A stretch of DNA of 64,000 bases from Amycolatopsis granulosa (GTDB taxonomy: Bacteria; Actinomycetota; Actinomycetes; Mycobacteriales; Pseudonocardiaceae): positions 2,108,001 to 2,172,000 of the forward strand of contig NZ_JAANOV010000001.1 in NCBI RefSeq assembly GCF_011758745.1, read 5' to 3'. The notes under the pieces were generated by a model. That model was not told the origin of the DNA, ran no database searches, and saw only the letters and a program-made list of their open reading frames with translations. This document shows, piece by piece, positions 2,898-59,088 of this stretch; position 1 is the stretch's first letter, and every line of letters begins with the position of its first letter. Both the position numbers and the translations under genes were made by a program.

Positions 2898-3131
2898 CTA
2901 GGCGCCGAGGGTGTCGATCTCGGTGGAGAGGATCGCGGCCTGCTCGTCGAGTTCGTGCTCGCCGGGCTGGTCCCCGGCCCGCTGCCGCAGCGCGTCACGC
3001 TCGATGACGGTCAGCGCGCCGCCCGGCGCCTCACCGGCCGGCAGCACCTCGAGCCGGCCCTCCTGCAGCACGAGCCGTGCTCCGTCGCCGGCCTCCAGCA
3101 GCGCCTGCAGATCCGCCGCGGTCACCTTCAT
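2898..3131 (-). CDS. Small acidic hypothetical protein
   Basis: A 77-residue hydrophilic protein beginning MKVTAADLQALLEAGDG. The middle (ARLVLQEGRLEVLPAG) could form a short beta-hairpin. I do not recognise a family. It ends 12 bases before the amidohydrolase start on the same strand, so the two are probably co-transcribed. The start has GGGAGACCCGATG-like spacing to a purine-rich site. It has no membrane segment and no cysteines. Confidence 0.55.
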   Translation of the reverse strand: MKVTAADLQALLEAGDGARLVLQEGRLEVLPAGEAPGGALTVIERDALRQRAGDQPGEHELDEQAAILSTEIDTLGA

Positions 3132-3176
3132 CGGGTCTCCCTTCGCCGCGCGCCGGTTACCCGCTCGGTGCGGCGG

Positions 3177-4958
3177 TCAAGCGTGCAGGGCGTGCACCCG
3201 GAGCGCGAGCTGGATCTCCAGCGCCCGGCCGGGCTGCTGCCAGTCGTCGCCGAGGAGGGACGCGACGCGGTCCAGCCGCTGCACCACCGTGTTGACGTGG
3301 ACGTGCAGCGCCTCCTTCGCGCGCGTGGAGTTGCCGCCCGCCGCGAAGTACGCCTGCAAGGTGCCGATCAGATCGGTGCCGCGCCGCTCGTCGTAGTCCA
3401 GCACCGGGCCGAGCGTGCGCCGCACGAACCCGGTCAGGTCCCCGCGATCGCCGAGCAGCACGCCGAGGAACCCCAGCCCGGCAGCCGAGGCACCGTCACC
3501 GGAACGGCCCAGCGCCAGCAGCGCCCGCAGGCACCGGACGGCTTCCGCGTGGGCACCGGCGATCGCCACCGGACCACGGGCCGGGCCGGCCGCGCCCACC
3601 GTCACCGGCGTGTCCACGGCGGCCGTCAGCGCTTCGGCCGTGCGTGCCGCCACCGCGTCCGGATCGTCGCCGCGCACCAGCAGCACCACCTCCTCGGCGT
3701 GGATACCGGCCAGCGTCGCGTGCCGCGCGGCGGCCACCGCGAGCCGGGCCCGGGACACCGACTCGGCGTGCGCGAGCAGCACCGCGTGCGCTTCGGTCAG
3801 GTCGACGCCCAGTCGTCCGGCCCGGGCGAGCAGGGCGCCCGGGTTGCGGTCCGGCGCGGTCAGCAGGTCGGTGAGCAGCTCGCCGCGGACCTCCTCCTCG
3901 GCCTTCGCCACCGACCGGCGGAGCAGGAGCAGCAACGCGGTGACGACGGCGGCCCGCTCGAACAGCCGCCGGTCGGCGTCGAGCAGCGCGTCCCGCCCGG
4001 CCAGCACCATGCTGCCGAGCAGTTCGGGGCCGGCCTGCACCGCGCACACCAGCGAGTCGTCCCCGGCCACCGAGCGCCCGGTGCTCCGCGACGCCGCGAC
4101 CACCTCCGGATCGGGCGCGGGCGGGGCGGTTCCCGCGTGCGCCAGTTCCTCGCCCGCCGCGTCGAACAACCCGATCGAGCCGTGCAGGACCCCGGCCAGC
4201 GCGGCGGCCACCTCGGGCACGTCCCCGCCGCGCAGCACCAGGTCCATCAGCCGGTCGTGCGCCTCCTCCGCGCGGTGCATCGCCGCCGAGTGCGAGCTGA
4301 TCTCGTCCAGCAGGCGGGCGTTGTCGAGCGCGATGACGGCGTGGTCGGCCAGCGACGACAGCAACGCGACCTCGTCCGGCGTGAAGTCGCGCGGTGTCCG
4401 GTCGGACGCGTACAGCACACCGATCACCGACCCGCCCAGCGACAGCGGAACGCCCAGGATCGCGGCCAGCCCCTCGTCACGCACCGCCTCGTCGATCGGG
4501 CTGGTGTGCCGGAACCGCTCGTCCCGGAAGTAGTCCGGGGTCGCGTAGGGCCGCGCGCTCTGCGCCACCAGGCCGCCGAGCCCCTCGCCCATGCCCAGGA
4601 TGACCTCCTTGAACAGCGGCGACACGCACCCGTCGGTGACGCGCATGTAGGTGCGCCCGGCGGTTTCGTCGTTGAGGCTGAGGTAGGAGACGTCGGCGCC
4701 GAGCAGCGTGCGGGCCCGCCGCACGATCGAGCGGAGCACGGCGTCCGGGTCGCGCAGGCGGGCCAGGTCGCTGGCCGTGTCGAACAACGCGGTCAGCTCG
4801 GCTTCGCGCCGGCGGTGCGCGGTCAGCGTGGCGTGGATGCGCAGCGCCAGCTCGGTGGCCTTGGGGTCGGCGGCGCCGGCGTGCGCCAGCTGCTCGCTGC
4901 TCGCCCCGCCGGCGAGCAGGTCGAGCAGCCGGCGCACGTCGTGGTCCACGCCGGTCAT
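3177..4958 (-). CDS. GAF-domain regulator with PucR/CdaR-type C-terminal HTH
   Basis: A 593-residue cytosolic regulator. After a helical start, a GAF sensor domain spans roughly residues 50-200 (LFDTASDLARLRDPDAVLRS through ALLSSLADHAVIALDNAR). A central region follows, and the C-terminus has the PucR-type helix-turn-helix (AKEALHVHVNTVVQRLDRV). This architecture is common in actinobacterial activators of small-molecule catabolism. Its start lies four bases after the stop of the transporter gene, giving the order dehydrogenase, transporter, regulator on one transcript. It probably senses a metabolite of that pathway; which one is not visible. Confidence 0.85.
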   Translation of the reverse strand: MTGVDHDVRRLLDLLAGGASSEQLAHAGAADPKATELALRIHATLTAHRRREAELTALFDTASDLARLRDPDAVLRSIVRRARTLLGADVSYLSLNDETAGRTYMRVTDGCVSPLFKEVILGMGEGLGGLVAQSARPYATPDYFRDERFRHTSPIDEAVRDEGLAAILGVPLSLGGSVIGVLYASDRTPRDFTPDEVALLSSLADHAVIALDNARLLDEISSHSAAMHRAEEAHDRLMDLVLRGGDVPEVAAALAGVLHGSIGLFDAAGEELAHAGTAPPAPDPEVVAASRSTGRSVAGDDSLVCAVQAGPELLGSMVLAGRDALLDADRRLFERAAVVTALLLLLRRSVAKAEEEVRGELLTDLLTAPDRNPGALLARAGRLGVDLTEAHAVLLAHAESVSRARLAVAAARHATLAGIHAEEVVLLVRGDDPDAVAARTAEALTAAVDTPVTVGAAGPARGPVAIAGAHAEAVRCLRALLALGRSGDGASAAGLGFLGVLLGDRGDLTGFVRRTLGPVLDYDERRGTDLIGTLQAYFAAGGNSTRAKEALHVHVNTVVQRLDRVASLLGDDWQQPGRALEIQLALRVHALHA

Positions 4959-4962
4959 CGTC

Positions 4963-6303
4963 TCACCGGACGACGGGTTCCGCGGTGCTCCCGGTGGTCG
5001 CGGGGGCCTCGTCGTGCAGCGAGGTCCGCGCGGTCTCCTGGGCGCTGGCCACCGCGATCAGGGTGAGCACGCACATCGCCACCACGTACAGCGAGACCGC
5101 CGCCGTGCCGCCGAACTCCTTGAACAGCGCGACCGCGAGGATCGGGGCCAGCGCGCCCGCGGCGATCGAGGACAGCTGGCCGCCGATGGACAGGCCGGTG
5201 TAGCGGACGCGGGTCGGGAACTGCTCGGCGAAGAACGCCGCCTGCGGCCCGTACATGGCGCCGTGCAGCACCAGGCCGACGGTCGCGGCGAGCACGATCA
5301 TCGCGGGCGAGCGGGTGTCCATCAGCGCGAAGAACGCGAACGCCCAGCCCGCCATCGCGACCGTGCCGAACAGGTACACCGGGCGGCGGCCGATCCGGTC
5401 GGACAGCGCACCCCACAGCGGGATCGTCACGAAGTGGATCGCCGAGCCGATGAGCACCGCGTTGAGCCCGGTGGACTTGCTCAGCCCGAGCGGACCGGTG
5501 ACGTAGACCAGGATGAACGCGGTGAGAACGTAGTAGGACACGTTCTCCGCCATCCGGGCGCCGATGGTGATGAGCACCCGCCGCCAGGCGGTGCGGAAGA
5601 CCTCCACCGCCGGGGCGCCGTGCTGTTCGCCGCGCTGCCGCGCCTTCTCCTGCGCGGCCAGGAAGACCGGCGATTCGGTGACGGTGAGCCGGATCCACAG
5701 GCCGATCATCACCAGCACGCCGGAGAGCAGGAACGGGACCCGCCAGCCCCAGGAGACGAACGCGGCGTCGGTCTGCACCGCGGCCAGCACGGCGAGCACC
5801 GCGGTGGCCAGCAGGTTGCCGCCCGGGGCGCCGCACTGCGGCCAGGAGGCCCAGAACCCGCGGCGGCGGTCGTCGCCGTGTTCGGACACGATCAGCACCG
5901 CGCCGCCCCACTCGCCGCCCAGCGCGAAGCCCTGGATCAGCCGCAACGCGGTGAGCAGCAGCGGAGCGGCCACGCCCACCGCGGCGTAGGTCGGCAGCAG
6001 GCCCATCGCGCAGGTGGACCCGCCCATCAGCAGCAGGCTGAACACCAGCAGCTTCTTGCGGCCCACCCGGTCACCGAAGTGGCCGAACACCAGCCCGCCC
6101 AGCGGCCGGGCCAGGAAGCCGATCGCGTAGGTCGCGAAGGACAGCAGGGTGCCGGTCAGCGGGTCGCTGCCGGGGAAGAACAGCTTGTTGAAGACCAGGG
6201 CCGCGGCCGATCCGTAGAGGAAGAAGTCGTACCACTCGATCGTCGTGCCGACGAGGCTCGCGCCGACGACTTTCGCGATCGCGCGCTTCTCGGTGCGGGG
6301 CAT
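4963..6303 (-). CDS. MHS-type major facilitator transporter
   Basis: A 446-residue, 12-helix permease of the metabolite:H+ symporter branch of MFS (ShiA/KgtP/ProP relatives). The hallmark start GTTIEWYDFFLYG and the loop GHFGDRVGRKKLLV between helices 2 and 3 are clear. The ATG at 6303 has an AAGGAG-type site upstream. It lies between a 3-hydroxybutyrate dehydrogenase and a GAF regulator on the same strand, so it probably imports the substrate of that enzyme or a related short hydroxy or keto acid. The substrate assignment is inference from context only. Confidence 0.85.
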   Translation of the reverse strand: MPRTEKRAIAKVVGASLVGTTIEWYDFFLYGSAAALVFNKLFFPGSDPLTGTLLSFATYAIGFLARPLGGLVFGHFGDRVGRKKLLVFSLLLMGGSTCAMGLLPTYAAVGVAAPLLLTALRLIQGFALGGEWGGAVLIVSEHGDDRRRGFWASWPQCGAPGGNLLATAVLAVLAAVQTDAAFVSWGWRVPFLLSGVLVMIGLWIRLTVTESPVFLAAQEKARQRGEQHGAPAVEVFRTAWRRVLITIGARMAENVSYYVLTAFILVYVTGPLGLSKSTGLNAVLIGSAIHFVTIPLWGALSDRIGRRPVYLFGTVAMAGWAFAFFALMDTRSPAMIVLAATVGLVLHGAMYGPQAAFFAEQFPTRVRYTGLSIGGQLSSIAAGALAPILAVALFKEFGGTAAVSLYVVAMCVLTLIAVASAQETARTSLHDEAPATTGSTAEPVVR

Positions 6304-7762: not shown

Positions 7763-8623
7763 ATGAAGTTCGAGACGGTCGCCGACGAGCTGTACGCCCT
7801 GCCCCGGGACGAGTTCACCGCGGCCCGCACGGAACGGGCCAAGGCGGCCAGGGCCCGGCAGCCGGACCTCGCGAAGCGCATCACCGGCCTGCGCAAGCCG
7901 ACGGTCGCCGCCTGGCTGGTCAACCAGGTGGTGCGGCAGCACCCGCGGGAGATCGAGCAGCTGGACGACCTGGGGTCGCGGTTGCGGGCCGCGCACCGGA
8001 AACTCGCGGGCGACGAGCTGCGCACGCTGTCCCGGCAGCGCAACGAGCTGATCCGCCGGTTGAGCGGCCTGGCGAGCGCCATCGCCGACACCGTGGGCGT
8101 GGCCTACCACGACACCGCCGAGCGGCAGGTCGAGGACACGTTCGAGGCGGCGGTGTCCAATCCGGACTCAGCGGCGGAAGTGCGGGCGGGACGGTTGTCC
8201 ACCGCGTTGACACCGTCCACTTCGGAGGACTGGCTCGCCGCCGCGCTCGCCGCGTCGCCGGCGCGCAAGGCCGCGCCGCAACCCCCTGCCCGGGCCCGGG
8301 CGAAGCAGCAGCGATCACGCGACCCCGAGGCCGAACGCCGGGAGGCGGCACTGGCCGAAGCACGCGCGAACGCCGCCGCCGCGGCCGCCGCACGCGACGA
8401 GGCTCAGCAGAACCTCGACGAAACCACCGCCCGCGCGGCGGAAGCGGCCGAAACGGTGGCCGGCCTGCGCACCCGTTTGGACGAAGCCGTCCGGGCCGAA
8501 CGCGCGGTGCGCAAGGAAGTGACGGCCGCGCGCAGGGCAGTCACGGCGGCGGAGAAGGCGGCCGGGGAAGCCGAACGACGGGTCACCGAAATGACGTCGT
8601 TCGGCCGACGCTCCCGGCGGTGA
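7763..8623 (+). CDS. Coiled-coil hypothetical protein
   Basis: A 286-residue protein found widely in actinobacteria but without a known role. The N-terminal half (PRDEFTAARTERAKAAR, LRKPTVAAWLVNQVVR) is a conserved-looking basic helical domain. The C-terminal 100 residues are Ala/Glu/Arg-rich heptads, a long coiled coil, ending in an Arg-rich tail. This composition suggests a nucleic-acid or nucleoid-associated structural role, but that is a guess. There is no signal peptide or membrane segment. Confidence 0.7.
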   Translation: MKFETVADELYALPRDEFTAARTERAKAARARQPDLAKRITGLRKPTVAAWLVNQVVRQHPREIEQLDDLGSRLRAAHRKLAGDELRTLSRQRNELIRRLSGLASAIADTVGVAYHDTAERQVEDTFEAAVSNPDSAAEVRAGRLSTALTPSTSEDWLAAALAASPARKAAPQPPARARAKQQRSRDPEAERREAALAEARANAAAAAAARDEAQQNLDETTARAAEAAETVAGLRTRLDEAVRAERAVRKEVTAARRAVTAAEKAAGEAERRVTEMTSFGRRSRR

Positions 8624-8672
8624 CCTTGTGCCACACTGGCGGGAACCCGCGACCGGAAGGTGGTGATCACCG

Positions 8673-9467
8673 ATGACCCCGAAGGCACCGCGCGAACGCA
8701 CCACCGCGACGGCCGCCGGCGTCTACGACTGGTACCTCAACGGGCGGCACCACCTGCCCTGCGACGCGGAAGCGGCGATCGCCGCGCAGCAGGCGTTCCC
8801 CCTCGCCGGGCAGACCGCCCGGTACAACCGCGACTTCCTGCAACGGGTCGTCCGGTGGATGACCGAGCACGGGATCCGCCAGTTCCTCGACATCGGCTCG
8901 GGTTACCCGACGGCCGGCAACGTGCACGAGATCGCGCAGCGGTACGCGCCGGGTTCGCGGGTGGTCTACGCCGACCTCGACCCGGACACCGTCGAGGTCA
9001 GCAACCGGCTGCTGGAGGGCACCCCGGACGCGACCTGCCTGCGGGGCGACGTGCGCGAACCGGAGGACATCCTGGGCCGGGCGGAGCTGCTGGACCTCAC
9101 GCGGCCGGTGGGGCTGCTCCTGGTGTCGGTGCTGCCGTTCGTGCCCGGGGACGTGGCCGCGCTGGTGCGCCGCTTCCTCGTCCGGCTGGCGCCGGGAAGC
9201 TACCTGGCGCTCACGCACGTCACGACGGCCGAGGACGAGCGGATCCGCCGGCGGCAGGCGGACGTGGAACAGACGTACAACGCGAACGTGCAACAGAACG
9301 TGCACCTGCGCGACCCGGAGGAGATCGCGGACCTGTTCGCCGGCACCGAGCTCGTGCCGCCCGGCCTCGTGCTCGCCACGCACTGGCACCCGCCGCGGGG
9401 TTACCGGCCCGGCCCGGACGACCAGGCGAGCGCCGTCCTGCTCGGTGGCGTGGGGCGGATTCCCTAG
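8673..9467 (+). CDS. SAM-dependent methyltransferase, DUF574 type
   Basis: A 264-residue member of the S-adenosyl methyltransferase family PF04672 (DUF574), expanded in actinobacteria. Diagnostic segments are VYDWYLNGRHHL near the start, the SAM loop FLDIGSGYPTAGNVHE, then YADLDPDTV and the C-terminal ARELV-like part (FAGTELVPPGLV). The methyl acceptor is not known for the family. It is followed on the opposite strand by the ABC ATPase gene. Confidence 0.85.
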   Translation: MTPKAPRERTTATAAGVYDWYLNGRHHLPCDAEAAIAAQQAFPLAGQTARYNRDFLQRVVRWMTEHGIRQFLDIGSGYPTAGNVHEIAQRYAPGSRVVYADLDPDTVEVSNRLLEGTPDATCLRGDVREPEDILGRAELLDLTRPVGLLLVSVLPFVPGDVAALVRRFLVRLAPGSYLALTHVTTAEDERIRRRQADVEQTYNANVQQNVHLRDPEEIADLFAGTELVPPGLVLATHWHPPRGYRPGPDDQASAVLLGGVGRIP

Positions 9468-9476
9468 CGCGACCGG

Positions 9477-10265
9477 TCAGACCACCGGCTCCGCGCGGGC
9501 GGCCCACCGGCCCTCGGTACGCGTGATGCGGACCGGGTGGTCGAAGCACTTGCTGATGTGGTCCGTCGTCACCACCTCACCGGCGGGACCGGAGGCCAGG
9601 CACTGGCCCTCGCGCAGCAACAGCGCGTGGGTGGTGCTCGCCGGCAGCTCCTCGAGGTGGTGCGTCACCAGGACCGTCGCCAGTTCCGGGTGTTCCCGGC
9701 GCAGCGCGTCCACACTGGACAACAGCTGCTCGCGTGCCGCGACGTCCAGGCCGGTGGCCGGCTCGTCGAGCAGCAGCAGGCGCGGCGCGGGCATCAGCGC
9801 GCGGGCGATCAGCGCCCGGCCCCGCTCGCCCTGGGACAGGGTGGGCCAGCGGGCGTCGCGCTGGGCCGTCAGGCCGAGCATGCGGATGAGGTCCTCGGCG
9901 CGGTCCCGCTCCGCCGCCGCCGGCTGCCGGCGCGGCACCAGCTCGGTCGTGTTCGTCAGCCCGGTCAGCACGACCTCGAACACGGTCAGCGGCGAGCGCA
10001 GCGGGTGACGCGGGTTGATGTGGCCGAGGAACGACCGCAGCTTGCGCATATCCACCCGGCCCAGCCGGTGCCCCAGCACGTCGACCGTCCCGCGGGTCGG
10101 GTGCGTGACCGCCCCGAGCAGGCCGAGCAGCGTGCTCTTGCCGGCCCCGTTCGCCCCGAGCAACGCCCAGTGCTCACCCTCGCGCACGGTGAGCGAGATC
10201 GACCGGAGCAGCTACCTGCCGTCCCGCACGAGATCGACATCGTTCACCTGCAGCACCGGCGTCAT
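9477..10265 (-). pseudogene. ABC transporter ATP-binding protein with in-frame amber codon
   Basis: A complete single-domain ABC ATPase is readable from ATG 10265 to the stop at 9477, except that codon 18 is TAG (10212-10214), between DLVRDGR and LLRSISL. After it come Walker A (GANGAGKST), the signature LSQGERGRA, Walker B (LLLLDEPATGLD) and the H-loop THHLEE. A restart at GTG 10187 would give a 236-residue protein lacking the first beta strands. The gene is therefore broken, read through, or starts late. It resembles iron/molybdate-type ATPases (ModF/PhrA-like); no permease gene is adjacent. Confidence 0.75.
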
Positions 10266-17163: not shown

Positions 17164-19512
17164 ATGACCTCTCTCGACCACCGGACGCCGGTCCTCGTCG
17201 GCGTCGGCCAGGCATCGGAGCGCATCGACGATCCCGGGTACCGCGGGCTGTCCGCGGTCGAGCTCGCGGCCGCGGCGGCCCGGTCGGCCCTCGCCGACAC
17301 CGGCGCCGACGTGTCGGCGATCGCGTCCGCCCTGGACACCGTCGCCGGGGTGCGTCAGTTCGAGATCTCCACGCCCGTCTCGCAGTCCCCGCTGGGCCGG
17401 TCGGACAACTTCCCCCGTTCGGTCGCCGGCCGCCTGGGCGCGACACCCGCGCGTGCCGTCCTGGACGTCACCGGCGGCCAGTCGCCGCAGCACCTGGTCA
17501 CCGAGCTCGCCGGGACGATCGCCGCCGGCGGCGCCGAGGTCGCGCTCGTCGTCGGCGCGGAAGCGATCTCCACGGCCCGTCACCTGCAACAAGCCGCGGA
17601 CAAGCCGGATTTCACCGAGCACGTCGGCGGCGACCTGGAGGACCGCGGGTTCGGGCTGGCCGGCCTGGCCAGCCGGCAGATGCTCGCGCACGGCCTGATC
17701 GAACCGGTGAGCCAGTACGCCCTGTTCGACAACGCCCGCCGCGCCCGGCTCGGTCTGTCGCGCGCGGACTACGCGATCGCGATGGGCGAGCTGTTCGCCC
17801 CGTTCACGGAGGTCGCCGCCGCGAACCCGCACGCCGCCGCCCCGTTGGTGCGCAGCGCGCCGGAACTGGTGACCCCGACCGAGCGCAACCGGCCCATCGC
17901 CGATCCGTACCCGCGGTTCCTCGTTGCCCGCGAACAGGTCAACCAGGGCGCCGCGGTGCTGATGATGTCGGTGGGCGCCGCGCGCCGGCTGGGTGTGCCC
18001 GAGGAGAAGTGGGTCTTCCTGCACGGTCACGCCGACCTGGAGGAACAACCGCTGCTGGAGCGCGAGGACCTCAGCGCCGCGCCCGCCGCGGTGTTCGCGG
18101 TGCGGCACGCGCTGGAGCTGGCCGGAATCGGCATCGGCGACCTGGCCACCCTCGACCTCTACAGCTGCTTCCCGATCGCGGTGTTCGCGGTGTGCGACGG
18201 GCTCGGGCTGGCGCCGGACGACCCGCGCGGCCTCACCGTCACCGGCGGCCTGCCCTTCTTCGGCGGCCCCGGCAACAACTACTCGACGCACGCGATCGCC
18301 GAGACCGTCGTGCGCCTGCGCGACCAGCCGGGCGCCTTCGGACTGGTCGGCGCGAACGGCGGCATGCTCAGCAAGTACTCCGCCGGCGTCTACTCGACCA
18401 CGCCCGCGCCGTGGCGGCCGGACCGCAGCGCCGAACTCCAGGCCGCGCTGGACGCCCGCCCGCGCGTGCCGACCGCGATCCACCCGGACGGCTGGGCCAC
18501 GGTGGAGACCTACACGGTCCAGCACGCGGCCCGCACCGCGGTGGTGATCGGACGGCTCGACGACGGCCGCCGGTTCATCGCCTCCAGTGACGACGCGGAC
18601 ATGCTCGGCCGGCTGCTCGAGGGCGAGCCGATCGGCAGCAGGGTCCACGTGCGCTCGTTCGGGTTCGGCAACCGCGTCGCGGCGACCCCCGAGCGGATGG
18701 ACGAGCTGTTCCCGCCCCGCGCGCCGGGGTTCCGGGACCACTACGAGCACGTGCTCGTGCGGCGGGACGGGCGCCTGCTGGAGGTCACGATCAACCGGCC
18801 GGACTCCCGCAACAGCCTGCACCCGCCCGCGAACGAGGAGCTGGCGGAGGTGTTCGACGCCTACTTCGCCGATCCGGACCTGTGGGTCGCGATCATCACC
18901 GGTGCCGGGGACAAGGCGTTCTCCGCGGGCAACGACCTGGTCTACGCCGCGAGCGGCCGGCCGATGTGGGTGCCCAAGTCGGGGCTGGCCGGGCTGACCG
19001 GCCGCGAGTCGCTGCCGAAACCGGTGATCGCGGCGGTCAACGGGTTCGCGCTGGGCGGCGGCTGCGAGATCGCCCTCGCCTGCCACCTCGTGGTCGCCGA
19101 CGAGACCGCGCGGTTCGGGCTGCCGGAGGTGCGGGTCGGGCTGGTCGCCGCCGCGGGCGGGCTGGTTCGGCTGCCGCGCACGGTGCCGCCGAAGGTGGCG
19201 GCCGACGTGATCCTCACCGGCCGGCGGTTGTCCGCGGCGGAGGCCGAGTCGTACGGCCTGGTGAGCCGGGTCGCCCCGGCGGGGCAGGCGCTCGCGGTCG
19301 CGCGGGAGGTGGCGGCGGCGATCCTGGCGGGCTCCCCGACGTCGGTGCGCACGTCGCTGCGGATGATGGCGGAGGCGGATGCGATCGCGGACACCACCGC
19401 GGCCGTCCGGCACCCGTCGCCAGCCCTCGACGAGCTGCTCGTCACCCAGGACGCGTTCGAAGGGCCCGCCGCGTTCGCGCAGAAGCGGAAACCGGTGTGG
19501 CGCAACCGGTGA
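17164..19512 (+). CDS. Thiolase-like protein fused to enoyl-CoA hydratase
   Basis: A 782-residue fusion. Residues 1 to about 500 are a type-1 thiolase-like protein (start TPVLVGVGQASERIDD), including the additional C-terminal domain of that group (HPDGWATVETYTVQH to FGFGNRV). Residues about 520-782 are a complete crotonase with the oxyanion loop AFSAGNDL, GGGCEIALACHLV and the second catalytic Glu in FGLPEVRVGL. The thiolase half lacks the nucleophilic cysteine (TGGQSPQHLV) and the second cysteine (GANGGMLSKYS), so it probably does not cleave 3-ketoacyl-CoA. The crotonase half should hydrate enoyl-CoAs. The two parts share one frame with no break. Confidence 0.85.
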   Translation: MTSLDHRTPVLVGVGQASERIDDPGYRGLSAVELAAAAARSALADTGADVSAIASALDTVAGVRQFEISTPVSQSPLGRSDNFPRSVAGRLGATPARAVLDVTGGQSPQHLVTELAGTIAAGGAEVALVVGAEAISTARHLQQAADKPDFTEHVGGDLEDRGFGLAGLASRQMLAHGLIEPVSQYALFDNARRARLGLSRADYAIAMGELFAPFTEVAAANPHAAAPLVRSAPELVTPTERNRPIADPYPRFLVAREQVNQGAAVLMMSVGAARRLGVPEEKWVFLHGHADLEEQPLLEREDLSAAPAAVFAVRHALELAGIGIGDLATLDLYSCFPIAVFAVCDGLGLAPDDPRGLTVTGGLPFFGGPGNNYSTHAIAETVVRLRDQPGAFGLVGANGGMLSKYSAGVYSTTPAPWRPDRSAELQAALDARPRVPTAIHPDGWATVETYTVQHAARTAVVIGRLDDGRRFIASSDDADMLGRLLEGEPIGSRVHVRSFGFGNRVAATPERMDELFPPRAPGFRDHYEHVLVRRDGRLLEVTINRPDSRNSLHPPANEELAEVFDAYFADPDLWVAIITGAGDKAFSAGNDLVYAASGRPMWVPKSGLAGLTGRESLPKPVIAAVNGFALGGGCEIALACHLVVADETARFGLPEVRVGLVAAAGGLVRLPRTVPPKVAADVILTGRRLSAAEAESYGLVSRVAPAGQALAVAREVAAAILAGSPTSVRTSLRMMAEADAIADTTAAVRHPSPALDELLVTQDAFEGPAAFAQKRKPVWRNR

Positions 19513-19637
19513 GCCCCTCGGTCAGGTGTCGTTCGACCCGGGGAACCCCCCTTCCGGAAACGGCACGCCGGGCACAGACTGAACGACGAAATTCCGCCTG
19601 GCGGAAACTGGTTCCGGACTCCCTCCCGGAGGGCCAC

Positions 19638-21932
19638 ATGCCTGAGCCCGCGCTGGTGCGGGTGGCCGGTCTGCCCGCGGCGCTGGCCGCCGCCCTGGGC
19701 ACCCCGGACCTGACCGAACGGATGCGTCACCTGATCCGGGCCGAGACGGCGTACCGCGTGTGCGCGGCGGAGGTGGCCGGCCGGATGGGCGACGAGCTGA
19801 TCCCGGTCCTGCCGCGGACCCTGCGGTGGCAGGCCCTCGGCGTGCGGCGGCGGCTGCACCGCGGCGAGGTGGTCCGGCCGGGCGAGCTGGACTTCCCGCC
19901 GCTGTCCCGGATCGCGGCGTGGGGTGCCACGCTGACCGCCGAGACCGCCGCGCTGCGCGAGGCCGTGGCGGACGCCGAACGGACGCGGCACGACCGGATG
20001 TGGGCGGCGATCAGCCGTGATCCCGAGGCCGTGCGGGTGCTCGACGCGGCCGCGCCGGAGGTTCTCGCCGATGTCCGCGCCCGCCTGGCCGCGGGTGAGC
20101 CGTGGACGAGCAGGCACCTGCGCAAGCGCGGTGACCACCTGCTGCGGCTGGTGTTCCGCGCCACCTTCGGCACCGGCCCGCGGGGCCGGCTCGCACCCGC
20201 CGCCCCCGTCGGCGGCGAGGCGGTCCACCGGCCCGGCACCGGCCACGACGACCGCCCGCCGGACACCGTCGGCGCGTGGCCCGACGGGTGGCTGAGCCTG
20301 ACCCCGCTGCGATGGGCCGAGGACGACCGGCTCTGCTGGGAGCCCACCCACCGCGGCCACCTGGGCACGCCGCGCCGGGGCGAGATCCAGCGCACCGCGG
20401 AGGTGGACGCGCTGTGCCGGGTGCTGGGCTCCCGGCCGATGCGCACCCGCGAGGTGGTCGACCTGCTCGCACCGGACGCGCGGCACAAGCCGGTGGTGCG
20501 CGAGTCGTTGCGGCACCTGGCTCAGGCGGGGCTCGTGCAGGTGTCGTCCGGGCCGCCCAGGCAGCGTCGACGGGTCACCGCCGAGCCCGGCACGGTCGCG
20601 GTGCCGGCGCGGCTGCCCGAGCTGGTGGAGCACGCGGGACGGCTGGCCGCGGTGCTGACCGGCCGCCGGATGCCGCCGGAGCTCGGCCTGATCGGCCCGG
20701 AACCACGGCCGGTCATGGAGATCGTCGCGCGGACCGTGGACGCCGCGGAACCGCTGCCCGGACCGCGGTGGCCGGAGCCGCGGCCCGGCACGCCGTACCA
20801 GCGGCTGTGCGAGTGGCTGGCGCGGCACGCCGACGACGGCGAGATCGACCTGGGTCCGGCGGTGCTCGATTACCTGGGCGCGCCGCCGGCGAAGCCGTCG
20901 CGGTGGCCGGTGGACTGCCTGCTGCGCCCGCTGCCGGAGGGCCGGGCCGTCCTGGAGTCCGTGACGCCGGCCGGGACGATGGACGCCTGGTTCGCGGCGG
21001 CGCTGGAGCCTCGGCACGGCGAGCTTCCCCCGGTGACCGCCTACCGCGCGTTCCTCGTCGAAACCGCGGCCCGGTGCGGCGCGGAGCTCGTCGAGATCCT
21101 CCCGCCACCGGCCGGTCGCGACGCCACCACGGTCCGCCGCCCGCGCTACACGCGGACCTGGACCGGCGCCGCCGACCCGGCATCCGCTGTGGACGATCCC
21201 GCGGGCATGCACCACTACCTGCCGCTGACGGAGATCACCCTGCGCCGCGATGCGCGCCGGGTGATCGCCGAGGACCGGTCCGGCCGCGAGCTGTGGCCCC
21301 TCTACCACGCCACCCGGCGCCCACCGCCGCCGTGGGACCTGGTGGTTTCGCTGCTCACCGCGGCGTCCCCGGCCCGGCGGCTCAGCACGCCGTGCGCGTT
21401 CGGCGATCCCCGGGCCGCGTTCCCGGGCCGGACCCGCACGCCGCGCCTGCTGCTCGACCGGGACCTGGTGATCGCCCCGGCGACCGTGTTCGCCGGGCGG
21501 GGCCTGTTGCCGGAGCCGGGCGGGGACCTGTTCGCCCGGGTTCGGGCGCTGGCGAACCTGCGGCTGGCAACGGGCGTGCCGCGCTGGGTGATCGCCCGGC
21601 GGGGGCGCGAGTCCCGGCCGGTGGACCTGGACAACATCGCGACGCTGCGGATCGTCGACCGGATGCTCGCCGATCCGGCCGTGCCGGGGCTGGTCCTGGA
21701 GGAGATGCTGCCCGCGCCGGACGACCTGACCGTGTCCGATGTGGACGGCGGCCGCCGGGCGGCGCGGGCCCTGGTGCGGCTGCCGTCCGGCACCACGGCG
21801 GCCGAACTGGCGGAGCGGGCCACGCAGGCGTGGCAGCAGATCACGCGCCGCACCAGTGGCGGCGCACCAGTGCTCGCGGCACCGCGGTCACCTTCGGCGT
21901 CGCCGGCGTCCGCCGGGCCTCGCGGGCGCTAG
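19638..21932 (+). CDS. Orphan LanB-like protein (glutamylation domain, no elimination domain)
   Basis: A 764-residue protein resembling the N-terminal tRNA-dependent domain of class I lanthipeptide dehydratases. Similar segments are the start LVRVAGLPAALAAAL, the helix ALGVRRRLHRGEVVRP, a core HLRKRGDHLLRLVF, the strand LLLDRDLVIAPATVF, then PVDLDNIATLRIVDRML and the late LVLEEMLPAPDDL. The protein ends shortly after in a Ser/Pro/Ala tail; there is no SpaB_C elimination domain in it or nearby. Such short forms act with a partner in thiopeptide pathways or append amino acids to peptides (PEARLs). The family's TSPFSTF or TRPTPFG-like motif is GTGPRGRLA here. A small frame with a good ribosome site follows at 22010. 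Confidence 0.7.
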   Translation: MPEPALVRVAGLPAALAAALGTPDLTERMRHLIRAETAYRVCAAEVAGRMGDELIPVLPRTLRWQALGVRRRLHRGEVVRPGELDFPPLSRIAAWGATLTAETAALREAVADAERTRHDRMWAAISRDPEAVRVLDAAAPEVLADVRARLAAGEPWTSRHLRKRGDHLLRLVFRATFGTGPRGRLAPAAPVGGEAVHRPGTGHDDRPPDTVGAWPDGWLSLTPLRWAEDDRLCWEPTHRGHLGTPRRGEIQRTAEVDALCRVLGSRPMRTREVVDLLAPDARHKPVVRESLRHLAQAGLVQVSSGPPRQRRRVTAEPGTVAVPARLPELVEHAGRLAAVLTGRRMPPELGLIGPEPRPVMEIVARTVDAAEPLPGPRWPEPRPGTPYQRLCEWLARHADDGEIDLGPAVLDYLGAPPAKPSRWPVDCLLRPLPEGRAVLESVTPAGTMDAWFAAALEPRHGELPPVTAYRAFLVETAARCGAELVEILPPPAGRDATTVRRPRYTRTWTGAADPASAVDDPAGMHHYLPLTEITLRRDARRVIAEDRSGRELWPLYHATRRPPPPWDLVVSLLTAASPARRLSTPCAFGDPRAAFPGRTRTPRLLLDRDLVIAPATVFAGRGLLPEPGGDLFARVRALANLRLATGVPRWVIARRGRESRPVDLDNIATLRIVDRMLADPAVPGLVLEEMLPAPDDLTVSDVDGGRRAARALVRLPSGTTAAELAERATQAWQQITRRTSGGAPVLAAPRSPSASPASAGPRGR

Positions 21933-22009
21933 CCGGCCCGGAGCCGCCGCAGGGTGAAACCGTGCCCGCCGGGATCCAGCTCGCGAGTCGCCTGCACTGA
22001 GAGGAACCC

Positions 22010-22411
22010 ATGACCGTCTCCGACTACGTTGAGTCGCTGCTCGAGCACGCGCGCGAGATCGCCGACCGGCTGGTTACTCTGATCGAGAGCACGGGCGCGA
22101 TGTGGCACGGCCACCCGGTGCGGAGTTCACGGCCTGGCTCCAGCGGCCGGGGAACTGGAAACGGAGCCGGGGTGGACGGGAGTTCGATCCGGCGCCCCGG
22201 CACCAGCCACTGTGGACGGTGGCCGGCACTGCTGCTCCCGGCACCGGCGGGCCACCCGGTTCTTCCGATGACGGGACGTGTTTGTCCCCGCCGGCCGGCG
22301 GGAAGGCATCGGATGAGCCCGAGCCGCGGGTGCGTCGTGCAAGGAGGAACCCCGTGCGTCCCAAGGTCTTCGTCCGCGAGTTCCCGACGATCCACCTCAC
22401 CATCGGCGTGA
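22010..22411 (+). CDS. Small protein downstream of LanB-like gene, possible peptide substrate
   Basis: A frame starting at ATG 22010 with AGAGGA six bases upstream. The first 30 residues form an acidic amphipathic helix (begins MTVSDYVESLLEHAR), like a RiPP leader, then a Ser/Gly/Pro/Arg-rich region with two early cysteine-containing stretches. The full frame is 133 residues but its last part overlaps the next gene in another frame, so the real coding end or a frameshift is uncertain. I do not recognise a family. Position 77 bases after the LanB-like gene on the same strand makes it the obvious candidate partner. Confidence 0.4.
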   Translation: MTVSDYVESLLEHAREIADRLVTLIESTGAMWHGHPVRSSRPGSSGRGTGNGAGVDGSSIRRPGTSHCGRWPALLLPAPAGHPVLPMTGRVCPRRPAGRHRMSPSRGCVVQGGTPCVPRSSSASSRRSTSPSA

Positions 22412-22614
22412 CCGGGAACATCATCTTCTTCGTGGGCAGCGTGTTGTTCCTCTGGCACGCGGCCGAGCGCATCGCGATCTGGCTGTTCATCGTCGGCTCG
22501 TTCGGGATGATGCTGGGTGCCATCGGCCACGCGGTCTACATCCACGAACGGCACCGCCTCAACGGCGCCCCCGGCCACCCGGTGCCCCGGGAAGGCGCGC
22601 GGACCCGCCCCTGA
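22354..22614 (+). CDS. YrhK-like small membrane protein
   Basis: An 86-residue protein with two hydrophobic segments: LTIGVTGNIIFFVGSVLFLW and a second around IAIWLFIVGSFGMMLGAIG, matching the YrhK-type domain (paired TM hairpin with GN and GS motifs). I chose GTG 22354 because AAGGAGG lies at ideal spacing. It overlaps the end of the preceding small frame. Function unknown; probably in the cytoplasmic membrane with a charged C-terminal tail. Confidence 0.7.
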   Translation: MRPKVFVREFPTIHLTIGVTGNIIFFVGSVLFLWHAAERIAIWLFIVGSFGMMLGAIGHAVYIHERHRLNGAPGHPVPREGARTRP

Positions 22615-22669: not shown

Positions 22670-23116
22670 TCACCGAGCCGGAGCGGTGCGCCTGCCGGTG
22701 GCGAGGCCGAGGGCGATCATGCCGACGGCGAGGCCGAGGTGGAGCCAGTTGTCCGCGGTGTTGACGGGGACGAAGTTGCCCGCGGAGTCGTGGTCGACGA
22801 CCAGCCCGTAGATCCAGAGGACCAGGTAGATCGCGCCGCCGGCGATGAGGAACGTGCGTGCGCCGGAGGCGGTGCGGGCCAGCGCCAGGCCGGCGACGCC
22901 GAAGGCCAGGTGGACCAGGTTGTGCAGGATCGACACGGCGAACACGCCGAGCAGCATCGCGCCGGAGTGGTGCCCGGCGAAGCTGAGCATGTCGTAGTGG
23001 GTGGTCAGGCCGGGGATGAAACCGGCTATGCCGACGAGCAGGAACACGACGCCCACCACGGCGGCGACGACCTGCGCCGGGGTGCGCGACTGGGTGCTGG
23101 TGACGGAACGGGACAT
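22670..23116 (-). CDS. DUF4383 membrane protein
   Basis: A 148-residue four-helix membrane protein of the DUF4383 family common in actinobacteria. Helix 1 is VVAAVVGVVFLLVGIAGF; the family's HNLVHLAFGVAGL helix and the end NWLHLGLAVGMIALG are clear. The ATG at 23116 follows GGAG at good spacing. Function unknown; it often occurs near stress-response genes, and here it is divergent from a PRC-barrel/DUF2382 gene. Confidence 0.85.
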   Translation of the reverse strand: MSRSVTSTQSRTPAQVVAAVVGVVFLLVGIAGFIPGLTTHYDMLSFAGHHSGAMLLGVFAVSILHNLVHLAFGVAGLALARTASGARTFLIAGGAIYLVLWIYGLVVDHDSAGNFVPVNTADNWLHLGLAVGMIALGLATGRRTAPAR

Positions 23117-23283
23117 GCGTTCACTCCTTCGCGGAATTGGTGATGCCGGGAGCGATACCCGGCCGGGCCGGGTCTCAACGCTCAAACTGCATCGATTTTG
23201 CGTCGTTTCGCGGTTCACTCGTCCGGGTAGCTGGGATGAATGCGGCCCCGCCTCGGGGCCGCCGCCGAAGGGAATGACAACCA

Positions 23284-24093
23284 ATGACGCAAACCAACCA
23301 GCACTTCGCCCAGTGGAGCGGACGCACCCTGTACGACAGCAGCGGCGCCAAGGTCGGCCAGATCGGCCAGTTGTGGACCGACGACGCGGACGGACACCCG
23401 ACCTGGCTGACGACGCGGACCGGCCTGTTCGGCACCCGCGAGTCGTTCGTCCCGGTGCAGGGCGTGCAGGAACGCGACGACGGCGATCTGGAGACCCGCT
23501 ACCCCAAGGAGCTGATCAAGGACGCCCCACAGGTCGAGCCGGCTCCCACCGAGCACGGGCAGCACCTCGGCGTGACCGAGGAACAGCAGCTCTACCGCCA
23601 CTACCAGCTCGCCGGCGAGCGCGGTGCGCAGGCGGGGCACGGTGGTAAGGCCGGGCACGAGGGCGGCCGGCCCGAGGGCGCGGAAGGACACGACGTCTCG
23701 GGGCCCACGACCGACGAGGCGATGACGCGCTCGGAGGAGCGGTTGCGCGTGGGCACCGAACGGCGCGAGCGCGGGCGTGCCCGGCTGCGCAAGTACGTCG
23801 TCACCGAGACCGAGCAGGTCGAGGTGCCGGTCACCCGGGAGGAAGTGCGGGTCGAGCGGGAACCGATCACCGACGCCAACCGCGAGCAGGCGATGTCGGG
23901 GCCGGGGATCTCCGAAGAGGAACACGAGGTGACCCTGCACGAGGAACGGCCCGTGGTGGGCACCGAAGCCGTGCCCGTGGAACGGGTCCGGCTGGCCAAG
24001 GACCAGGTGCAGGACACCGAAACCGTCCGCGGTGAGGTCCGCAAGGAACACATCGACACCGACACCGGTACCGAGCGCGGCCGCCGCGAGTGA
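23284..24093 (+). CDS. PRC-barrel plus DUF2382 protein
   Basis: A 269-residue hydrophilic protein. Residues about 10-80 are a PRC-barrel (GRTLYDSSGAKVGQIGQLW). Residues about 150-260 are DUF2382, a repeated charged strand unit visible twice: ARLRKYVVTETEQVEVPVTRE and VTLHEERPVVGTEAV. Similar proteins are linked to envelope or desiccation stress in actinobacteria and deinococci. A Gly/His-rich linker joins the two. It is followed by a strong hairpin, so it is probably a single-gene transcript. Confidence 0.85.
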   Translation: MTQTNQHFAQWSGRTLYDSSGAKVGQIGQLWTDDADGHPTWLTTRTGLFGTRESFVPVQGVQERDDGDLETRYPKELIKDAPQVEPAPTEHGQHLGVTEEQQLYRHYQLAGERGAQAGHGGKAGHEGGRPEGAEGHDVSGPTTDEAMTRSEERLRVGTERRERGRARLRKYVVTETEQVEVPVTREEVRVEREPITDANREQAMSGPGISEEEHEVTLHEERPVVGTEAVPVERVRLAKDQVQDTETVRGEVRKEHIDTDTGTERGRRE

Positions 24094-58910: not shown

Positions 58911-58983
58911 GTGGAGCTAAGGGGACTCGAACCCCTGACCCCCACACTGCCAGTGTGGTGCGCTACCAGCTGCGCCATAGCCC
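58911..58983 (-). tRNA. tRNA-Ala (anticodon GGC)
   Basis: A 73-base cloverleaf on the minus strand. Acceptor stem GGGGCTA pairs with TAGCTCC and includes the G3-U70 pair that marks alanine tRNAs. D stem GCGC, anticodon stem CCACA with loop CTGGCAG (anticodon GGC), T arm AGGGG-TTCGAGT-CCCCT. The CCA end is not encoded. A remnant integrase beside its 3' end suggests it served as an attachment site. Confidence 0.95.
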
Positions 58984-59088
58984 CGGAGCGAAGGTGAACT
59001 CCGCATCTCGTCTGCGACTACTGTACATGACCCCACTGTGGCCGTTGCGCGGGGGGTCGGTGTGACGGCCGGCCCCCCGCGGCGCGCG

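Follow-up and report, generated by a model that had tools for sequence, protein, structure and literature searches.

The DNA analysed here, hereafter the window, is a stretch of 64,000 nucleotides covering 2.108–2.172 Mb of the single-contig, 5.62 Mb genome of Amycolatopsis granulosa (G000), and it contains a gene for an orphan LanB-type glutamylation protein. As a first, sequence-only reading of the window had noted, the frame is real, starting with ATG and encoding 764 residues at 19638–21932 on the forward strand, and neither an elimination domain nor a LanC was found beside it. Its placement as a partner-less member of the LanB_B class rests on homology, fold and synteny. Upstream on the same strand lies a 782-residue frame (17164–19512), identified by family match and synteny, which fuses a thiolase-like domain with an enoyl-CoA hydratase and serves as the 5′ syntenic marker. 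The region directly before LanB (19516–19637, forward strand) was, together with its ribosome site, apparently inherited from a deleted elimination gene, as judged by DNA alignment. Downstream, a DNA match on the reverse strand (21946–21994) marks a deletion joint and what is left of the 3′ end of a sigma-factor-like gene, which stands after LanC in two related loci, L020 and L022. It is followed on the forward strand by a relic of a DUF1801 gene, comprising its 5′ part and ribosome site (22008–22135, recognized by homology), from which the small frame starting at 22010 arises, and by a YrhK-like gene (22354–22614, PF14145) with a GTG start behind AGGAGG, which shares bases with the 3′ portion of that small frame but is read in a different frame.

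The LanB nature of the protein, proposed from its sequence landmarks, does not show in the single sequence. Alone, it passed no Pfam or NCBIfam family cut-off; a PHROGs search gave no match up to an E-value of 0.1, the plasmid collection gave none, and a genome-wide PF04738 search yielded a match elsewhere in the genome and none at the window LanB. PDB sequence profile searches with the family, or with a single relative as query, returned chance matches only. While a search for related loci with the single window protein found none, an alignment as query retrieved 10 loci. The relatives, in contrast, are recognizable: all five homologues scanned (L020, L023, L025, L026 and L027) passed the PF04738 cut-off with 28.5–51.8 bits versus 28, and hhalign comparison to eight fused LanBs gave a probability of 98.1 for ten elimination-partnered homologues and of 82.6 for five Amycolatopsis orphans. 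We further employed an AlphaFold2 model of the window LanB (mean pLDDT, the predicted local distance difference test, 61.5), which was used for the fold class only as TM-scores did not exceed 0.47. In Foldseek its best match was TbtB (E 1.1e-18), then GodF, MibB, NisB and MadB, and all 11 matches at E ≤0.001 belonged to these five proteins. Since the PF04738 matches of the homologues, the profile comparison and the fold search agree, the window LanB is a glutamylation protein of the type described in PMC11962472 as working with a separate elimination protein (LanB_B).

LanB relatives were found in nine of the 19 genomes of the genus, our own included, and family-wide in 29 of 297 genomes; the eight other Amycolatopsis LanBs are 70–89% identical to that of the window. 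In all nine loci the thiolase/enoyl-CoA hydratase gene precedes LanB, as a single open frame in eight of them and in pieces in G013 (L021). Four of the nine (L020–L023) are intact, with the gene order elimination protein, LanB, 52-residue Cys-rich precursor and LanC, the elimination protein being located between the thiolase gene and LanB. In L022, the elimination protein scores 53.8 bits with PF14028 and 80.4 bits with TIGR03891, the precursor directly after LanB reads MESTLELSELDGLVERLDARISSSGDPETGKPPSLLLCSGYCGDEESSWFVC, and the LanC behind it scores 55 bits with PF05147. The Amycolatopsis precursor cores carry the word SLLLC, which we take to be SapB-like, and the precursor of Streptomyces sp. 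CB03234 (L038) presumably resembles SapT. The intact order recurs in this Streptomyces locus, in Streptoalloteichus (L025), in Longimycelium (L026) and in nine further loci; L171 gave no precursor match and LanC is broken in L158. Loci were counted once (L164, L166 and L167 equal L041, L036 and L035, respectively, and L172 equals L040). Five Kutzneria-group genomes possess an elimination–LanB pair (L035, L036, L041, L163 and L165) with neither precursor nor LanC within the stretch fetched; the same genomes carry a second cluster (L176–L180) of intact order with a precursor, in which LanC and often also LanB are in pieces. The elimination proteins share an invariant lysine within the motif FFxMHKPPGLRxR (six of six rows), which may be the equivalent of SptBb Lys92. 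Since the orthologues adjoin an elimination protein, a LanC and a Ser/Cys precursor, the window gene derives from a split dehydratase, and we are almost certain that it originated as one half of a split class I lanthipeptide dehydratase. The same neighbourhood, present in four Amycolatopsis species, speaks against the suggested PEARL (peptide aminoacyl-tRNA ligase), and the notion of a reduced system for ribosomally synthesized and post-translationally modified peptides (RiPPs) gains support, as the partners present in these four relatives have been lost in the window.

The 22010 frame had been taken for a leader-bearing precursor that forms a peptide-tailoring pair with LanB. It does exist, with 133 residues, a ribosome site and a helix-like start. 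However, its first 42 codons (22010–22135) are the 5′ end of a broken DUF1801 gene (59% identity over 46 aligned columns, E 1e-10; DNA 74% over 131 columns, E 1e-17), an intact copy of which in L022 matches PF08818 with 54.2 bits. Its ribosome site was inherited from that gene, and the remainder of the frame overruns the start of the YrhK gene in a different frame. In the closest orthologous locus, L017 of the sister genome G012, nothing aligns to window positions 21941–22243, so the frame is absent there. The homologue of the frame in L020 and L022 is a complete DUF1801 gene some 4 kb downstream, and the true precursor, missing in the window, directly follows LanB there. The expected conservation beside orthologues was thus not found, and a tailoring pair with this frame as precursor is practically untenable. 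By ancestry the protein is not a PEARL, and orthologous gene context together with the DUF1801 match led us to reject the reading of a PEARL with a leader peptide.

In five Amycolatopsis species, including that of the window, the elimination gene, precursor and LanC are deleted or only scraps are left. All three are gone from the locus in the window and in G012. In G010 an internal deletion has left 122 codons of the elimination gene, the precursor has ACG in place of its ATG start and a shortened frame, and LanC is absent from the locus. G002 retains a 33-codon remnant of the elimination gene and G004 (L018) its start only; neither locus holds a precursor or LanC, the G004 contig ending 353 bases past LanB with a DUF1801 remnant already within these bases. 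G010, G004 and G001 were taken as A. deserti, A. thermalba and A. tucumanensis, respectively. In the window, 21946–21994 corresponds to 12577–12625 of L022, at the 3′ end of its sigma-like gene (86% over 49 bases, E 4.7e-10; tblastn E 0.005), and 22008–22125 aligns with the start of the L022 DUF1801 gene. That relics of both genes remain implies at least two deletions, and the precursor was by inference deleted.

Searches beyond the locus did not recover the partners. In our own genome the single matches of PF04738, PF14028 and PF05147 all fall into a separate cluster at about 2.77 Mb. This is a class I lanthipeptide cluster with fused LanB and LanC (L029, 8188–11037, at 2.769–2.773 Mb), and its fused LanB has MibB as best PDB sequence match. 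The genome of G012 (95% complete, one contig) gave no match with the elimination profile and none with PF05147, and partner genes elsewhere in the genome are thereby ruled out as a general answer. A precursor profile, which found its target in two of two control genomes, gave no match at E up to 0.1 in any of the six genomes with a partner-less locus, G000 included (150 of 152 first-look candidates were scored in each of G004, G010 and G002). Five thiolase/enoyl-CoA hydratase loci without LanB, four from LanB-less genomes and one a second copy in G002, showed no trace of the cluster in their flanks of about 6 kb; matches to YrhK, DUF4383 and PRC are missing from them too, and they possibly represent a different site. 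Because the LanB-only loci had been found with LanB as query, they are subject to ascertainment, and a reverse search with the elimination protein gave matches in 64 of 390 genomes. Among three of these that were absent from the LanB list, G175 has a LanB, G147 an elimination protein and LanC without LanB (L174, 8832–9761 and 7549–8703), and G273 an elimination protein only (L175, 8518–9297). Other genes of the cluster thus sometimes outlast LanB.

The junction upstream of the window LanB can be traced by DNA alignment. Window positions 19516–19660 match L022 7822–7975 (67%, E 4e-4) and 19516–19651 match L023 7614–7757 (70%, E 6e-9), and both matches include the start of the elimination gene. 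The window LanB thus appears to begin where the elimination gene began, behind a related purine-rich ribosome site. In G004, the opening codons of the elimination gene run directly into LanB in the same frame, and G002 and G010 each retain a short in-frame remnant whose stop overlaps the LanB start, as does the intact elimination gene in L022. These four deletion outcomes, in each of which LanB should be translatable, would fit selection for expression and are supportive, not proof, being few and seen only among survivors.

We then compared the LanB genes of the window and G012. Both share the upstream joint, an altered LanB C-terminus and Gly changes described below; given these common losses, their divergence should postdate the losses. 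Over 762–763 codons the ratio of nonsynonymous to synonymous substitution rates (dN/dS) is 0.44, with about 43, 38 and 95 changes at first, second and third codon positions (first, 42–43); both frames are open to the end and the gaps are whole codons in the codon alignment. In neutral simulations (six schemes of 300 runs each), mean dN/dS was 0.72–1.06 with 2.4–4.4 stops on average, only one of 1,800 runs reached 0.44, and the largest third-position share was 0.47 versus 0.54 observed. This suggests that, judged from substitution patterns, LanB has been under moderate purifying selection in both species since their split. A control on a dead piece, the elimination remnant of L019, comprised only 120 codons and gave an omega of about 0.47, hardly distinguishable from 0.45 in an intact species. 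Among the neighbours, the DUF4383 frame (22670–23284, reverse strand) has a dN/dS of 0.74 between window and G012, a value that may be inflated as its N-terminal part may precede the true start. Elsewhere in the window, a tRNA gene (58912–58984, reverse strand) is the sole Rfam match above threshold.

Residues 174, 178 and 180 of the window LanB align by hhalign with Arg, Arg and Thr of the fused LanBs, which by manual count in a fused LanB–NisB alignment correspond to NisB Arg83, Arg87 and Thr89. According to the experiments on NisB in PMC4341554, R83A/M and R87A hampered and T89A mildly affected activity in vivo, and a review counts Arg87 and Thr89 among the positions whose mutation abolishes dehydration (PMC7296275). 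Arg174 is kept in the window, and codons 178–180 (20169–20177, forward strand) encode Gly-Thr-Gly where partner-bearing homologues have Lys/Arg-x-Thr; both Gly changes recur in G012. All 28 LanBs with an adjacent elimination gene carry Lys (27) or Arg (1) at position 178, compared to two of eight without one (Fisher p 1.4e-5, kinship ignored), the other partner-less proteins having Gly (window and G012), Glu (G004 and G010), Thr (G002) or Ala (G035, in a gapped part of the alignment). At position 180, Thr occurs in 27 of the 28 partnered and three of the eight partner-less LanBs. When the partner-less label was placed on a tree, five changes were needed, at least four of them forced by well-supported branches, so the association does not reflect one event. 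The tree omits L036, L041 and L176–L179, and the long branches L027 and L171 meet in it and are possibly misplaced according to a program warning. Dehydratase function has very probably been lost in the window LanB.

Taken together, the window LanB descends from a split class I lanthipeptide synthetase consisting of elimination protein, LanB, precursor and LanC, of which it is the remaining glutamyltransferase. The other three parts were lost by deletions before the window species and G012 split; LanB was joined to the apparent start region of the elimination gene, and the residues aligned with NisB Arg87 and Thr89 are Gly in both species. We propose that the protein no longer dehydrates peptides and persists as a pseudoenzyme, whose role in binding or structure would keep it under moderate constraint. 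That LanB is kept for another, non-catalytic role rather than slowly decaying is fairly probable; tRNA or peptide binding, natural for the LanB fold, may be a candidate role. The main rival is a plain relic that decays without function while its G+C-rich sequence keeps the frame open for long, which we consider rather unlikely though deserving of serious weight. Several observations weigh on its side or against a retained role. Partners, precursor and active-site residues are gone, and the downstream DUF1801 and sigma-like genes are already broken. A set of 18 homologues accompanied by elimination gene and LanC shares 128 conserved columns (the fragmentary LanBs L176–L179 being left out here and included in the Lys178 count); 18 of these columns differ in the window and 22 differ in G012, as in a decaying gene. 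dN/dS is raised, at about 0.56 on the faster-changing stem that precedes the split (estimated from only the 588 codons identical in both species), and at 0.44–0.46 later, compared to 0.19–0.25 among the four intact Amycolatopsis LanBs and 0.05–0.27 in nine of 11 neighbour genes, of which only YrhK (0.40) and the DUF4383 gene lie higher. G004 and G010 are at 0.36 and 0.32 versus 0.21 on the intact L020 and L022 branches, and 67 of the 1,800 neutral runs had no stop at all. Moreover, Lys178 is retained in the partner-less L040 and L168, and the mapping onto NisB Arg87 is based on profile and pairwise alignments, not structure. What speaks against decay are the neutral runs, in which a dN/dS as low as the observed one was so rare and the third-position share never reached, and the preserved start contexts of LanB. 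Compared to the longer L020 branch with L023 as outgroup, G004 (0.33) and G010 (0.35) are moreover near their intact sister L020 (0.29–0.30), and G002 is at 0.31 or 0.35 depending on the comparison, parts of these three branches predating the losses.

An enzyme that still depends on aminoacyl-tRNA, be it a PEARL or a glutamyltransferase with another protein as its target, would be in keeping with the modelled LanB fold match and with PEARLs typically having only a glutamylation-like domain, as stated in PMC11962472. We regard it as improbable given that the orthologues, accompanied by elimination protein, LanC and Cys precursor, are split dehydratases, that the residues aligned with Arg87 and Thr89 are Gly, and that no scaffold peptide was seen beside the gene, where the candidate proposed earlier is the DUF1801 relic (the rest of the genome was not searched). 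Cooperation in trans with the 2.77 Mb cluster of fused LanB and LanC is less probable still: that cluster exists, and similar fused LanBs occur in six of the eight other LanB-bearing Amycolatopsis genomes, but its LanB has its own glutamylation domain, and G012 retains the orphan LanB with no detectable elimination domain or LanC. Going beyond the retained role in the window and G012, LanB might repeatedly survive the loss of its lanthipeptide cluster and persist under selection as a pseudoenzyme with altered catalysis. This broader reading, which we put forward tentatively and with some doubt, draws on the at least four changes on the tree, the loss of the Arg87 equivalent in six of eight partner-less LanBs, the deletion joints that spare the LanB start, and two partner-less LanBs that are otherwise nearly intact, with three (G004) and two (G010) of the 128 conserved columns changed, K178E among them, versus 13 in G002.

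If the selection signal is real, LanB is useful outside peptide modification, and if repeated survival is true, it would represent a new, non-biosynthetic use of the LanB fold, for example in tRNA or peptide binding. The open-licence literature yielded no paper on partner-less LanBs retained after cluster loss. Orphan LanBs are easily mistaken for PEARLs or new RiPP loci; orthologous neighbourhoods can decide, and the NisB Arg87 equivalent offers a test residue that tracks the presence of an elimination partner.

The window LanB resembles the PEARLs (LanB_C; TglB, AmmB and BhaB), as these are characterized in PMC11962472 and PMC12945691, in being short and devoid of an elimination domain, but differs from them in descending from a dehydratase that was accompanied by an elimination protein, a LanC and a Cys precursor. 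A different arrangement was observed in L028 (G034), where two tandem LanB-like proteins (2948–5233 and 7871–10102) flank genes that by eye are AMP-binding-like and pyridoxal phosphate enzyme-like; this recalls the layout of a PEARL with a non-ribosomal peptide synthetase outlined for Stackebrandtia in PMC11212132. TbtB of thiomuracin biosynthesis (LanB_B; 6EC7 and 6EC8) is likewise a split glutamylation protein and the best fold match, but the window locus lacks the separate elimination protein typical of LanB_B and the protein lacks the Lys/Arg-x-Thr of its partner-bearing kin. Lanthipeptides made with split LanBs are known from pinensin and SapT, as reported in PMC9011353, PMC7268733 and PMC9486935. 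The SapT-type clusters set out in PMC9011353 (SptA, SptBa, SptBb and SptC) distribute the same four functions over separate genes as the intact relatives do, whereas the window is left without three of the four parts. The precursor survey in that paper places SapT homologues only in Streptomyces; the intact kin described here come from one Streptomyces and from several Pseudonocardiaceae, the family on which the search was centred, and the intact split-LanB clusters of Amycolatopsis and related genera are candidates for new lanthipeptides.

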